This document shows positions 6,311 to 40,623 of a DNA stretch of 64,000 bases, one piece after another. The stretch's first letter is position 1. Each line of letters starts with the position of its first letter. The notes beneath the pieces are model-generated. The model did no database searches and had not been told where the DNA came from. It saw only the letters and a list, made by a program, of their open reading frames with translations. Made by a program: the position numbers and the translations under genes. The DNA comes from Nitrospirota bacterium (lineage in GTDB: Bacteria > Nitrospirota > JACRHL01): assembly GCA_029881725.1 (NCBI GenBank), contig JAOUMB010000005.1, positions 1-64,000 on the forward strand, given 5' to 3'.

Positions 6311-7689
6311 TTGTTCCGGCGTCCGTCTCCGTCATCCGCACGGGTTCCCGTCACGGCGCAGTCCAGTTCCCCTTTCCGAAGCCGAACGGTAATGGCGTCA
6401 CCGGGAGCCGCCTCCAAAGCGTCGGTCAGCACCTGACCATTCCGGGTGGCCACCGCATAGCCGCGCCCCAATACCTTCAGGGGCGACAGGGCATCCAGTC
6501 GGCCGGCGTTCCGGTCCACCCGTGTGCGGGCGCGCTCCAGGGTGTGTTCCATGGCCCCGCGCAGGCGCAGGATCAACCCGTTTACCTGACTCTCTCCCAC
6601 CGCCAGCCGGGCCACGGGGGCGGCCGCGAACACCCGTGCCGAGAGGGTCATCAGGCGCTGGCGGGACACCGCCAGGCGCAGGCCGAATGCCCGTGACAGG
6701 TGCAGTTGAAGATCGTCGGTGCGTTGCATCAGATGGCGCAGCCGCTCGCGGGGATCGGTCAATCCGGACCGTGCGTGCCGCAGCCGGTTTTGCTCCCGGG
6801 TCAGCAGGGCGCCCATGGCGGCATCCATTCGACGCGCCAGTTCGCCGGTGCGGGTGACCAGTTCCAGCCAGCCGGCGCTGACCAACTCGGCGGCGGCGCT
6901 GGGGGTGGGGGCGCGCAGGTCGGCGGCGAAATCGGCAATGCTCACGTCGGTTTCATGCCCCACTCCGGCAATGACCGGCACCGGACAGGCGGCGATGGCC
7001 CGCGCCAAGGCCTCGTCGTTGAAGGCCGCCAGATCCTCCGGAGAGCCGCCCCCGCGCACCAACAGAATCACGTCCACGTCTTTCTGGGTTGCGGCCAGCC
7101 CCAGCGCCTCGGTAAGTTGGCTCGGAGCGTCCCGTCCCTGCACCAGGGCGGGTACCAGCAGCACCGGCAGCCCGGCGGCGCGGCGGCCCAGCACGGAGAT
7201 CACATCGCGCAGTGCGGCGCCGGTGGGGGAGGTTACCACCGCCACCCGGCGTGGCACCATGGGCAGGGGGTGCTTTCGCTCCGGGTCAAATAACCCTTCA
7301 GCGGAAAGGCGCAGGCGCAATTCCTCGAACTGGCGGAACAGGTCGCCGGCGCCCGCGGTCTCCAGATAGTCGATCACCACCTGGTAGTCTCCACGCGGTT
7401 CATACACGGTGATGCGCGCGCGGCACAGGATACGCTCGCCGTCGGCGGGTCGGTGGGTCAGGTAACGGGCGGTGGAGCCCCACACCACGGCACGGATCTG
7501 CGCTTCCGCATCCTTCAGGGTCAGGTACATGTGACCGGAAGGGGGGGTACGCAGGCCACTCACCTCACCCACCAGCCACACGGTGCCGATCTGCCCTTCG
7601 AGGATTTCCCGTACCCGACGGGTCAGCTCGGCGACGGATAGAATCTCCCGCGCGGGCAGGCCGGAGGGATCGGTACCGGCCTCAGGCAT
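6307..7689 (-). CDS. xseA: Exodeoxyribonuclease VII large subunit
   Basis: The catalytic subunit of exonuclease VII, which degrades single-stranded DNA in both directions and acts in mismatch repair and DNA-damage processing. The 460-residue length matches the family. An N-terminal OB fold (GTVWLVGEVSGL, HMYLTLKD) is followed by the catalytic core with TSPTGAALRD, RGGGSPEDL and GVGHETDVSIADF, then a long helical region and the C-terminal GRGYAV segment. Its ATG at 7689 overlaps the stop of ymdB by 8 bases, so it is the last gene of the rarA-rny-ymdB-xseA unit. The small subunit gene xseB is not in the window. Confidence 0.97.
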   Translation of the reverse strand: MPEAGTDPSGLPAREILSVAELTRRVREILEGQIGTVWLVGEVSGLRTPPSGHMYLTLKDAEAQIRAVVWGSTARYLTHRPADGERILCRARITVYEPRGDYQVVIDYLETAGAGDLFRQFEELRLRLSAEGLFDPERKHPLPMVPRRVAVVTSPTGAALRDVISVLGRRAAGLPVLLVPALVQGRDAPSQLTEALGLAATQKDVDVILLVRGGGSPEDLAAFNDEALARAIAACPVPVIAGVGHETDVSIADFAADLRAPTPSAAAELVSAGWLELVTRTGELARRMDAAMGALLTREQNRLRHARSGLTDPRERLRHLMQRTDDLQLHLSRAFGLRLAVSRQRLMTLSARVFAAAPVARLAVGESQVNGLILRLRGAMEHTLERARTRVDRNAGRLDALSPLKVLGRGYAVATRNGQVLTDALEAAPGDAITVRLRKGELDCAVTGTRADDGDGRRNN

Positions 7690-36831: not shown

Positions 36832-37632
36832 TCACCCGAACACCATAAACAGGCCGACCACGATCAGGAGCAGGATAAACAGCCTGCGCAGCGCTCGTGC
36901 GGGCAGCCGGTGGGCCACCCGGGCGCCAAGCGGGGCAAACAGCACGCTGGTGAGGCCAATGGCGGCCAGTGCCGGAAACGACACGTAGCCGGCACTGAAC
37001 GGCGGCAGGTCAGGCGTGGAGGCGCCCATCGCGGCAAATCCCAGGGCCCCGAACAGGGCGATGGGAAAGCCGCAGGCGGACGATACCGGCACCGCGCCGT
37101 GGATGGGCGTATGGCGGTGTAACAGGTAGGGCACCGTGAGGGAGCCGCCGCCAATGCCCACAATGGCGGAAACCGCGCCAATCAGTCCGCCAATGGTCCG
37201 CGACAATGGAAGCGGTGCCGCGTCAGCGGTGGCGCGGGGTGCGGTGACCAGTGTCATCTGGGCCGCCATGAGCAGCGCGAATCCCCCCACGCACGCCTTC
37301 AGGGCCGGTCCCGGCAGCCGGCTGGCCAGCACGGCCCCCAGAAGGGCGCCAAAGGCCACGGAAGGGGCGAATTCCCGTACCCGGGGCCAAGGCACTTTCC
37401 CCAATCGATGATGGGCCCGTACGGCGGCCAGGGATACAAATACGATGATCGCCAGCGAGGTGCCCACCGCCAGATGGACGCGCACCTCCTCCGGCACCGC
37501 CAGCAGGGTGAACACCACGGTCAGCGTGGGTACGATCACCAGCCCGCCGCCGACACCGAAGAGGGCGCCGATGAACCCGGCAAAGGCCCCGGCCCCCAGA
37601 CACAGCAGGATCAGCGTGCCCGCGTCGGTCAT
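36832..37632 (-). CDS. TauE/SafE family sulfite/anion exporter-like permease
   Basis: A 266-residue membrane protein with about eight helices and the duplicated family motif: GFIGALFGVGGGLVIVPTL near the N-terminus and GLIGAVSAIVGIGGGSLTVP in the middle. Members export sulfite or organosulfonates, or act on other anions. Its ATG overlaps the stop of the HTH-ArgA gene by 4 bases, so it is co-transcribed with that gene, an unexpected partner for an arginine-biosynthesis enzyme. Confidence 0.9.
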   Translation of the reverse strand: MTDAGTLILLCLGAGAFAGFIGALFGVGGGLVIVPTLTVVFTLLAVPEEVRVHLAVGTSLAIIVFVSLAAVRAHHRLGKVPWPRVREFAPSVAFGALLGAVLASRLPGPALKACVGGFALLMAAQMTLVTAPRATADAAPLPLSRTIGGLIGAVSAIVGIGGGSLTVPYLLHRHTPIHGAVPVSSACGFPIALFGALGFAAMGASTPDLPPFSAGYVSFPALAAIGLTSVLFAPLGARVAHRLPARALRRLFILLLIVVGLFMVFG

Positions 37633-39236
37633 CCCCGGGCCCCCCGCAACGGTTTGCGGTAGATGCGGGAACCGCGCTTGTAGTTGTACAGGGCCTGGCG
37701 CTCCACCGGCAGGTCCGAGGGCTCGGCGGGTTCAAAACCGTGCTCCAGAAACCAGTGGGCGGTCTGGGTGGTCAGGGCGAACAGGTGGGTAAAGCCCCGC
37801 GCCACGGCCAGCCGTTCGATCTGGGACAGCAGTTCGGTGGCGCGCCCGGATTTCTGGTAATCGGGATGCACCACCATGCAGGCCAGTTCCGCCACTTTTT
37901 CCCTTGGAAATGGATGCAGCGCGGCGCAGGCGAGAACGGTTCCGTCCCGCTCGGCCACCAGGAAGGAGTCGATTTCCCGTTCCAGTTGCTCCCGGGAACG
38001 GCGCACCAGCACTCCGGCGTTCTCCAGCGGGACGATCAGGCTGATGATGCCAGCCAGATCGTCCAGGTTGGCTTTGCGCAGGGTTTCGTAACGGTTGGCG
38101 GACAGCATGGTCCCGCACCCGTCGCGGGTGAACAGCTCAGTCAGCAGCGCGCCGTCCAGGGAGTGGTCGAGCAGGTGACCGCGGGTGACACCGGCATCCA
38201 CGGCGTCAATCAGGGCGGACAGGGGTTCGGCGTCCGGCAGGGAGGGGAGCAGGGCGCGCGCCGCGTCCAGGGAAAGCTCGGAGGGCAGGGAGGCGGTGTC
38301 GCCGGAAGAGAAGCCCCGCTGGGCCAGGACGATGAGCTTGCGGGCGTGCAATTTGGAAGCGACGGTGCCCGCCACGTCATAGGACGATAGGTTGAAAATC
38401 TCGCCGGTGATGGAGTAGCCCACCGGGGGGATCAGCACCACCGTTTGATTGTTCAGCAGGGTGTTGATGGCGTCCGCGTCAACCCGGCGCACAGTGCCGG
38501 TGTGGTGGTAGTCCACCCCGTCCCGAATGCCGATCGGGCGGGAGGTGAGGAAATTGCCGGAGGAGACCCGCACATTGAATCCAGCCATGAGGGACGTTGG
38601 CAGCGAGGTGGTAAACAGCGCCTCGATCTGGGTGCGCACCGAGCCGGAAGCCTCCAGCAGGGCGGGAACTGCCTCCGGTGGAGTGACCCGGTAGGCACCG
38701 TGAAAGGAGGCATTGACGTTGGAGCGGGACAGACGCTCGGAAAGCTGGGGGCGGATTCCGAAAACAATGACCACCCGGATGCCCAGGGTGTGCAGCAGCG
38801 CAATATCGTGGATCAACGATGTAAAGAATGGGGAAGCCAGCGCTTCACCGGGAAAGTGGACGACAAAGGTGGAGCCCCGGTGAGCGTGGATATAGGGGGA
38901 CGCGGAGCGAAAAAACGAAACGAAAGGCGGAACTGCGGAAGCGGGTTGTTCGGCAACCGGAGGGGGACTCATGGTGTCCGGATAGGGGAGGTCGGGACGC
39001 AGCAGGCTGGGATGAATGGCAAAAATGGAGGCAAGCCGCAATGCCATTTCGGCGCTGATACGGGTTTTTCCGTGAAGGAATTGGCTGATGGCGCCCTGGG
39101 TGGTTCCGATCTGGCTGGCCAGGTCTGCTTGCGAAGGGCGGGTGCCGGTTTGTTTCGCAACGGTATCCTGCCAATCGCGAAATAAAGCGATGAAACTCTG
39201 CGCTGACAGGTCGCTTGTTTGGCTGTTGCTGGGCAT
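37629..39236 (-). CDS. argA: N-acetylglutamate synthase with an N-terminal XRE-type HTH domain
   Basis: A 535-residue fusion. Residues about 15-85 are a Cro/CI-type helix-turn-helix (SQADLASQIGTTQGAISQFL then HGKTRISAEMALRLASIFAI). From about 105 the classical ArgA follows: the amino-acid-kinase-like regulatory domain (GIRVVIVFGIRPQLSERL, LIPPVGYSITGEIFNLSSYD) and a C-terminal GNAT domain (CMVVHPDYQKSGRATELL, YNYKRGSRIYRKPL). It makes N-acetylglutamate, the first step to arginine. E. coli ArgA has 443 residues and no such domain. There is no stop or frameshift between the domains; Met89 could give a second, HTH-free product. argE lies just upstream, with the TauE gene downstream. Confidence 0.9.
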   Translation of the reverse strand: MPSNSQTSDLSAQSFIALFRDWQDTVAKQTGTRPSQADLASQIGTTQGAISQFLHGKTRISAEMALRLASIFAIHPSLLRPDLPYPDTMSPPPVAEQPASAVPPFVSFFRSASPYIHAHRGSTFVVHFPGEALASPFFTSLIHDIALLHTLGIRVVIVFGIRPQLSERLSRSNVNASFHGAYRVTPPEAVPALLEASGSVRTQIEALFTTSLPTSLMAGFNVRVSSGNFLTSRPIGIRDGVDYHHTGTVRRVDADAINTLLNNQTVVLIPPVGYSITGEIFNLSSYDVAGTVASKLHARKLIVLAQRGFSSGDTASLPSELSLDAARALLPSLPDAEPLSALIDAVDAGVTRGHLLDHSLDGALLTELFTRDGCGTMLSANRYETLRKANLDDLAGIISLIVPLENAGVLVRRSREQLEREIDSFLVAERDGTVLACAALHPFPREKVAELACMVVHPDYQKSGRATELLSQIERLAVARGFTHLFALTTQTAHWFLEHGFEPAEPSDLPVERQALYNYKRGSRIYRKPLRGARG

Positions 39237-39273
39237 TTGTATGCTAATTGAAAATCTTTAAACGGTTAACTTG

Positions 39274-39288
39274 TAATGGGTCATTATA
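39274..39288 (-). promoter_or_regulatory. argA promoter -10 box with an overlapping palindrome
   Basis: On the minus strand TATAAT (39288-39283) is a consensus -10 box; a good -35 is not evident. The 13-base palindrome TAATG-GGT-CATTA (39274-39286) overlaps it, as an operator would. The leader to the ATG at 39236 is about 40 bases and has no Shine-Dalgarno. Confidence 0.55.
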
Positions 39289-39344
39289 TTAGCCTGCCTA
39301 AATAAAAGTTTGGAAATTTTGTATTTCACCCACTCGAACCGCCT

Positions 39345-39366
39345 AAAATTTAGTCCAACTAATTTT
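39345..39366. promoter_or_regulatory. AT-rich inverted repeat upstream of argA
   Basis: AAAATTTAGT and ACTAATTTT, separated by CCA, form an inverted repeat with one extra T in the left arm. It lies about 60 bp upstream of the argA -10 box and could be a second regulator site. Confidence 0.4.
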
Positions 39367-39386
39367 CCCCGTTCCGGGGCTTGGGG

Positions 39387-40541
39387 TCAAGCCCCCACAC
39401 AAAAACGGTGAACCAGCGTTCTCAGAATTTCCACGGTGGGCGGAATGCGGCTGAGCTCCAGGTATTCGTCCGGTCGGTGAGCCTGAGCGATGTCCCCCGG
39501 TCCAAGGATCACCGTGTCGATCCCCAGCGCCGTCAGGTACGGCCCCTCGGTGCCGAAGGTCACCGCCCGGGGCGTCTGACCGCTCAGTTCCGCCGCTGCT
39601 TGCACGATAGGCGCCTGCTCCGGAGTCTCCATGGCGGAGGTGCCGGCAAACAGCGGGAAAACTTCCGCCCCCACGCCGCTGCCGGCAATGGCGGAGTGGA
39701 CCCGCTGCGCCAGCTCGGCACGCAATTCATCCACCCCCATGCCGGGCAATGGCCGCAGGTCGATGTGCAGTTCGCAGGCGGCGCAGATGCGGTTGGGGTT
39801 GTCGCCCCCGTGGATGTGTCCCAGGTTGAGGGTCGGCACCGGCACCGCGAAGCGGGTGTCCCGATGGCGGGTGCCCAATTGGGTGCGCCATTCCATCAGT
39901 GCGCCCATCACCCGCTGCATGGCATCCAGCGCGCTGGCTCCCCCCGCCGGATCGCTGGAATGGCCGCCGCTGCCGGTGAGGCGGATGGCTTCCATCAGGA
40001 TGCCCTTGTGTACGTGCACAGGCGCCATGCCGGTGGGTTCGCCGATCACCGCGTGGGCCGGATGGGCCAGTTGTCCGGCGGTGAGCGCCGCCGCGCCGCA
40101 CATGCTGCTCTCCTCGTCGGCGGTGCCCAGAATGGTCAGCGGCCGGGCGAACTGCCCGGCTTTGAACGCCCGCGCCGCCTCAATGGCGATGGGGATAAAG
40201 CTCTTCATGTCGCTGGTGCCCAGCCCATACAGGCGGCCATCCCGCTCGGCGAGGGTGAACGGGTCGCTGGTCCAGCGCTCCCGGTCGAACGGCACCGTGT
40301 CCGTATGTCCGGCCAGCAGTAGGCCGCCGGACCCGGAGCCCAGTGTTCCCACCACGTTGGCCTTATCCGGCGCGCCGGGTATGGGGATTACCTGTACGGC
40401 AAAGCCCAGCAGCTCCAGCCATCCGGCCACCTGTTCCGCCACCTGGCGGTTGCCTTGGTCAAAATCCGGGTGCACGGAACTGACCGAGGGGGTGGCGATG
40501 ATCCCTTCGAGCATGGTGCGCAAGGTCGGTTGCGTTTTCAT
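39387..40541 (-). CDS. argE: Acetylornithine deacetylase
   Basis: An M20-family zinc hydrolase of 384 residues that removes the acetyl group from N-acetylornithine in the linear arginine pathway. Ligands and catalytic residues are in LAGHTDTVPF, GLGTSDMKSF, TADEESSMCGA and the late IDTVILGPGDIAQAHRPDE. The dimerisation domain includes GSGGHSSDPAGGASALDAM. The ATG at 40541 begins the family match; the longer frame to 40769 overlaps the divergent DUF2007 gene. argA lies 150 bp downstream with its own promoter region. Confidence 0.94.
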   Translation of the reverse strand: MKTQPTLRTMLEGIIATPSVSSVHPDFDQGNRQVAEQVAGWLELLGFAVQVIPIPGAPDKANVVGTLGSGSGGLLLAGHTDTVPFDRERWTSDPFTLAERDGRLYGLGTSDMKSFIPIAIEAARAFKAGQFARPLTILGTADEESSMCGAAALTAGQLAHPAHAVIGEPTGMAPVHVHKGILMEAIRLTGSGGHSSDPAGGASALDAMQRVMGALMEWRTQLGTRHRDTRFAVPVPTLNLGHIHGGDNPNRICAACELHIDLRPLPGMGVDELRAELAQRVHSAIAGSGVGAEVFPLFAGTSAMETPEQAPIVQAAAELSGQTPRAVTFGTEGPYLTALGIDTVILGPGDIAQAHRPDEYLELSRIPPTVEILRTLVHRFCVGA

Positions 40542-40623
40542 AGCGGGAATTTTGCGTTCTTCCTTTTGAATGCACAACCACCCCGGCGATCCGGGAGTGG
40601 AAATATTGTGGTAGCGTGGCCCC

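Follow-up and report, generated by a model that had tools for sequence, protein, structure and literature searches.

The locus described here raises the question of whether the first enzyme of the arginine pathway, the N-acetylglutamate synthase ArgA, may also have become a regulator of its own gene. In the window, by which we mean the whole 64,000-nucleotide stretch of Nitrospirota DNA that was analysed, a single unbroken minus-strand ORF of 535 codons, running from 39236 down to 37629, encodes an XRE-type helix-turn-helix (HTH), a linker and a complete classical ArgA, and this fusion in one chain is real. An earlier note, made from the letters of the window, had described an uninterrupted frame from a Cro/CI-type HTH into a full ArgA. 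The frame was confirmed by the single ORF, by Pfam and NCBIfam scores and by a second copy in another genus; the HTH is indeed of the Cro/CI type (HTH_3 match), and only its extent had to be corrected, from residues 15-85 to about 12-80. The features of the locus are collected in Table 1.

Table 1. Features of the XRE-ArgA locus, with positions counted in the window.
Feature	Position	Strand	Basis or remark
XRE-ArgA fusion gene, 535 codons	37629..39236	-	ORF, Pfam, NCBIfam; same architecture in G003
XRE/Cro-type helix-turn-helix, residues about 12-80	38997..39203	-	HTH_3 above cut-off; 65% identity with G003
TQGAISQFLHG, holds the expected recognition helix	39069..39101	-	identical in G003; DNA-reading helix expected from the XRE fold
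Variable linker, residues 81-103	38928..38996	-	26% identity with G003; low model confidence
ArgA amino-acid-kinase-like domain, residues 104-380	38097..38927	-	Pfam, NCBIfam, fold match
Arginine-binding motif ELFTRDGCGT, residues 367-376	38109..38138	-	match to consensus of PMC4490483
ArgA GNAT acetyltransferase domain, residues 381-535	37632..38096	-	Pfam, NCBIfam, fold match
AT-rich gap, argE to fusion gene	39237..39386	-	absent in two unfused genera
Candidate operator TAATG-ACC-CATTA (TAATGACCCATTA)	39274..39286		sole exact copy in G000 genome; overlaps TATAAT at 39283-39288; suggestive only
Candidate operator TTAGT-TGG-ACTAA (TTAGTTGGACTAA)	39350..39362		genome has a single further site at one mismatch or less; suggestive only
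argE, acetylornithine deacetylase, upstream neighbour	39387..40544	-	family match; start inferred from it
TauE/SafE-type permease, overlaps argA stop codon	36832..37632	-	Pfam

The HTH_3 match covers residues 35-78 (E 4.9e-7, 30.1 bits against a cut-off of 23), and this XRE-type Pfam family cut-off is passed both in the genome of the window (G000) and in that of the second genus (G003). The fused HTH also matches YdaS-type regulators, with a score below that family's cut-off, and bears a weak likeness to the phage 434 repressor. AA_kinase and GNAT domains were likewise matched by Pfam, and residues 104-530 correspond to ArgA over its full length, far over the NCBIfam cut-offs, as the equivalogs NF003641 (549 bits, cut-off 344) and TIGR01890 (496 bits, cut-off 203) both align from residue 104 onward. 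The window protein is, by its sequence, a true ArgA, as the earlier note had held. Its best solved match in sequence and fold is the N. gonorrhoeae enzyme (ngNAGS), whose K201 is taken from the alignment as the counterpart of the invariant key lysine K300, and its arginine-binding motif agrees with the consensus E-L/I-F/M-T/S-X-X-G-X-G-T of NAGS (PMC4490483). The structure model has low confidence for the HTH and for the linker, and a model of the HTH alone, likewise of low confidence, was set aside.

The family of the window was sampled by four genera (G000, G001, G002 and G003), and the domain order sought in these relatives was found again in G003, hence the fusion is not unique to the window's genome. 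There, in a separate assembly, the same ORF has 536 aa, an HTH_3 match of E 5e-7 and an ArgA equivalog match of 584 bits. Identity between the two proteins is 65% in the HTH, 56% in the kinase-like domain, 62% in the GNAT domain and 26% in the linker, while the nucleotide differences in the HTH fall on codon positions 1, 2 and 3 in the numbers 23, 13 and 39. This codon-position pattern suggests that the fused HTH has been conserved as under purifying selection. The genome of the window is a draft of 126 contigs, and the earlier note had allowed that a sequencing error might have joined two genes; the same fusion in the separate assembly argues against any assembly or sequencing error so directly that its probability is negligible. 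Read-through was rejected as well, because in G003 the HTH is as conserved as the enzyme and the linker is not.

Another doubt concerns the start of translation. Met89 is located where plain ArgA proteins start, so that two products might be made, the full-length XRE-ArgA and a plain ArgA from Met89, with the enzyme being chiefly the short form. We consider this quite improbable, since the linker of G003 contains no Met, only GTG codons, and the start at Met89 is therefore not conserved; in addition, no clear Shine-Dalgarno sequence was seen by eye before Met89. Translation only from Met89, which the earlier note had set against its own proposal, is made unlikely by the same linker. As inspection by eye revealed no clear Shine-Dalgarno sequence 5' of Met1 either, the full-length start rests on conservation and not on a ribosome-binding site.

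With reference to the origin of the fusion, plain ArgA proteins were found in G001 and G002. The argE and argA genes overlap in G002, whose contig is the public record JALWRU010000064.1, labelled Nitrospira sp., and lie 10 bp apart in G001. In the fused genomes an AT-rich gap separates argE from the fusion gene, measuring 150 bp in the window and 265 bp in G003, where the start codon is at 6743. This would be most simply explained if an XRE gene, together with its promoter, had come to be placed between argE and argA and its frame had then been continued into that of argA. Some short XRE proteins of this family that stand alone (L118, L120 and L125) carry at their C-terminus an LRPDL segment resembling the one in the fused HTH, and may be relatives of the source of that HTH. 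Of the 396 genomes sampled from the phylum, 18 have an ArgA match at E 1e-40 or better; they belong to this family and to one other, and besides G003 no match extends into the HTH. The ArgA of the window's family is placed among gammaproteobacterial ArgA proteins with moderate support in the tree, and this grouping, together with the occurrence in two families, suggests that it came by transfer. The HTH is absent from the best 80 named ArgA relatives. An N-terminal match in L073 and a long frame in L082 were considered as HTH fusions and rejected, both being read-through from a neighbouring frame.

As regards the neighbourhood, argE (39387-40544 in the window) lies beside argA, judged by position, in the window and in G001-G003, and argJ occurs in all four family members (G000:C99:17699-18856 in the window's genome); argE and argJ act in the linear and in the cyclic arginine pathway, respectively. 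A TauE/SafE-type permease also stands 3' of argA in G002 and G003 (L111 and L113, by ORF order).

A second XRE-ArgA group came to light among the Pseudomonadota, the phylum to which the Marinimicrobium locus L031 belongs. Of 399 sampled genomes of this phylum, 117 have ArgA, and one of these, G760, carries in frame an XRE domain that differs in kind from that of the window; no HTH was seen by eye in the long open frames of other Pseudomonadota, L161-L168 among them. Within the family of G760, the fusion is near-universal: by our own count, 138 of 187 genomes align over the HTH, the linker and the start of ArgA in one stretch, and all 14 of the weaker cases that were opened carry the HTH, 12 of them being genomes of 0.9-1.3 Mb. 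Both domains exceed their curated cut-offs in the window, in G003 and in this family. One frame, L174 (G853), stops after 173 residues, so that either the gene is broken or the assembly is in error. Methylophilaceae is the probable identity of the family, to judge from 3-hexulose-6-phosphate synthase, which is above its curated cut-off in 14 of the 15 members tested and in none of three outside genomes, from the Sulfuricella ArgA, its nearest named relative in the tree, and from a range of genome sizes that we take to be in keeping with that family. The XRE part matches the NCBIfam model PRK08154, an anaerobic benzoate catabolism regulator in which an XRE domain likewise precedes a small-molecule kinase fold, with a kinase-like part that is presumably unrelated to ArgA. 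A tree in which all fused proteins form one clade was rejected (p-AU 1.4e-4), thus the XRE-ArgA fusion arose at least twice.

The operator evidence in the G760 family is stronger than that in the window itself. The fused loci looked at are L171-L200 and L223-L236. TGC-N7-GCA was found in 23 of the best 30 upstream regions, at a spacing of 7 only, against 0.3 in shuffles, and the wider dyad TGY-N7-RCA stands near the start codon in 40 of 44 (shuffles 3.2, largest 9), counts that are inflated by the kinship of the sequences, a relatedness which the spacing-scan control shares. Before unfused argA genes the dyad occurs in 3 of 47. The sites are concentrated around positions -30 and -58 relative to the start codon, and the dyad is often doubled, as 15 of 27 site pairs lie 29-31 bp apart, i.e. 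three helical turns. These observations strongly suggest that the XRE-ArgA of this family binds DNA. Four members with small genomes (L231, L234, L235 and L236) keep the HTH and have no TGY-N7-RCA dyad within 110 bp upstream; their operator may have changed along with the HTH. Elsewhere in eight genomes of the family the strict site is rare and falls for the most part within genes or in gaps that border on genes unrelated to arginine, and on this ground a regulon of the operator was rejected. Among the loci read, argA is the only arginine gene that adjoins a strict site, and autoregulation is thus indicated.

In the window, the 150-bp gap contains three 13-bp dyads with the 5+3+5 geometry seen in TGCGT-TTA-ACGCA (P about 0.01, for one spacing of nine looked at). 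These palindromes are only suggestive as operators: G003 has no exact copies of them, and a motif search for an operator common to G000 and G003 in the argA and argB regions was not significant for the four regions together (P 0.03-0.28). It might then be supposed that in the window lineage the XRE domain has lost DNA binding and now helps the enzyme to oligomerise, stabilises it or makes contacts with other proteins. In favour of this, the operators of G000 and G003 are candidates only, and extra N-terminal segments of other enzymes make protein contacts, as has been suggested for mammalian NAGS (PMC4490483). We nevertheless regard a loss of DNA binding as unlikely, because the segment holding the expected recognition helix is identical in G000 and G003, the gap between argE and argA widened as the fusion arose, and a conserved palindrome accompanies its counterpart in the G760 family. 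By analogy with that family, whose HTH is a different one, the XRE-ArgA of the window may bind DNA as well.

An equally doubtful alternative is that the fusion protein takes the place of ArgR and controls a set of arginine genes, argA and argB among them, rather than argA alone. ArgR (PF01316) was found neither in the genomes of the window's four family members nor among the Pfam matches of the fusion protein. In addition, a TAATG-N3-CATTA dyad with one mismatch lies upstream of argB in G000, its end 14 bp from the start codon, and in both fused genomes the argA region and the argB region have a weak motif in common, with P 0.03-0.05 for two of the three widths. The dyad before argB may nonetheless be a chance match, for ten sites of the TAATG type exist in the G000 genome and a control pattern yields more, and in the G760 family argA is the exception among arginine genes in adjoining a strict site. 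A regulon built on TAATG-N3-CATTA or TTAGT-N3-ACTAA in G000 was rejected, as the sites are few and, of those inspected, only that of argB adjoins an arginine gene.

The reading that we favour, and consider reasonably probable, is that of an active N-acetylglutamate synthase, probably a hexamer, which carries an XRE domain at its N-terminus and acts as a trigger enzyme; it would bind palindromes in the argA promoter and repress mainly its own gene. Both in the window and in G003, enzyme and DNA-binding domain are joined in one conserved chain. The trigger enzyme proposed by the earlier note is partly supported: the domain order, its conservation and an independent second fusion with a palindrome before its own gene speak for it, and the operator of the window lineage is a suggestive candidate. 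Of the direct control by arginine or acetylglutamate that the note had in mind, the sequence shows the arginine-binding motif and the key lysine. Neighbouring subunits of ngNAGS are interlaced through their N-terminal helices, and arginine, which binds next to this helix, displaces it and makes the ring about 10 A wider (PMC4490483). In the fusion protein, the XRE domains would sit just before the helices that pair neighbouring ring subunits and, as dimers, would occupy the promoter palindromes of argA, and the bound protein would repress argA, repression seeming likelier than activation. A hexamer could present three XRE pairs whose spacing depends on arginine, and arginine would tune DNA binding, most likely as a co-repressor. 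Such a presentation is proposed because the XRE domain stands just before the moving helix, the arginine motif is intact and no ArgR was found; with its binding motif intact, arginine is a plausible signal. A wider reading, to which we give somewhat less than an even chance, is that of a twice-evolved arginine sensor and autorepressor, whose arginine-controlled enzyme ring would offer XRE pairs to operators separated by three helical turns. One allosteric protein would then carry both the feedback inhibition and the repression of arginine synthesis in lineages without ArgR.

Compared with known systems, the enzyme part resembles classical ArgA (NF003641/TIGR01890; N. gonorrhoeae NAGS, 2R8V/3D2P) in its kinase-like and GNAT domains and its arginine-binding motif, whereas ngNAGS, the best 80 named relatives and the other groups sampled are all without an XRE domain. 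Like NadR, an enzyme plus HTH repressor (PMC8027369), PutA, which controls mainly its own locus (PMC8249747), and BirA, it unites a metabolic enzyme and a DNA-binding domain in one chain, but it belongs to another pathway and another enzyme fold, and its regulation is putative. NAGS-kinase of the Maricaulis/Xanthomonas type and ArgH-NAGS also join N-acetylglutamate synthase to another module; their partner, however, is another arginine enzyme and not a DNA-binding domain, and the review of NAGS architectures lists the kinase and ArgH fusions and does not mention DNA (PMC4490483). No description of XRE-ArgA was found in the literature searched, in which subscription journals are thinly covered. 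As a fusion of an arginine enzyme with a DNA-binding domain, XRE-ArgA appears to be new, trigger enzymes and other NAGS fusions being already known.

To our knowledge, trigger enzymes are few and have been discovered one by one. If the proposal is true, the joining of feedback inhibition and repression in one protein would be a repeatable solution with two independent origins, one of them retained even in streamlined genomes of ~1.2 Mb. XRE-ArgA would fill the same regulatory role as the arginine repressor ArgR, to which it is unrelated as a protein. ArgR is reported to be absent in the studied proteobacterial classes other than gammaproteobacteria (PMC5343134), and XRE-ArgA, with its predicted operator, offers a possible answer to how argA may be controlled outside the gammaproteobacteria.
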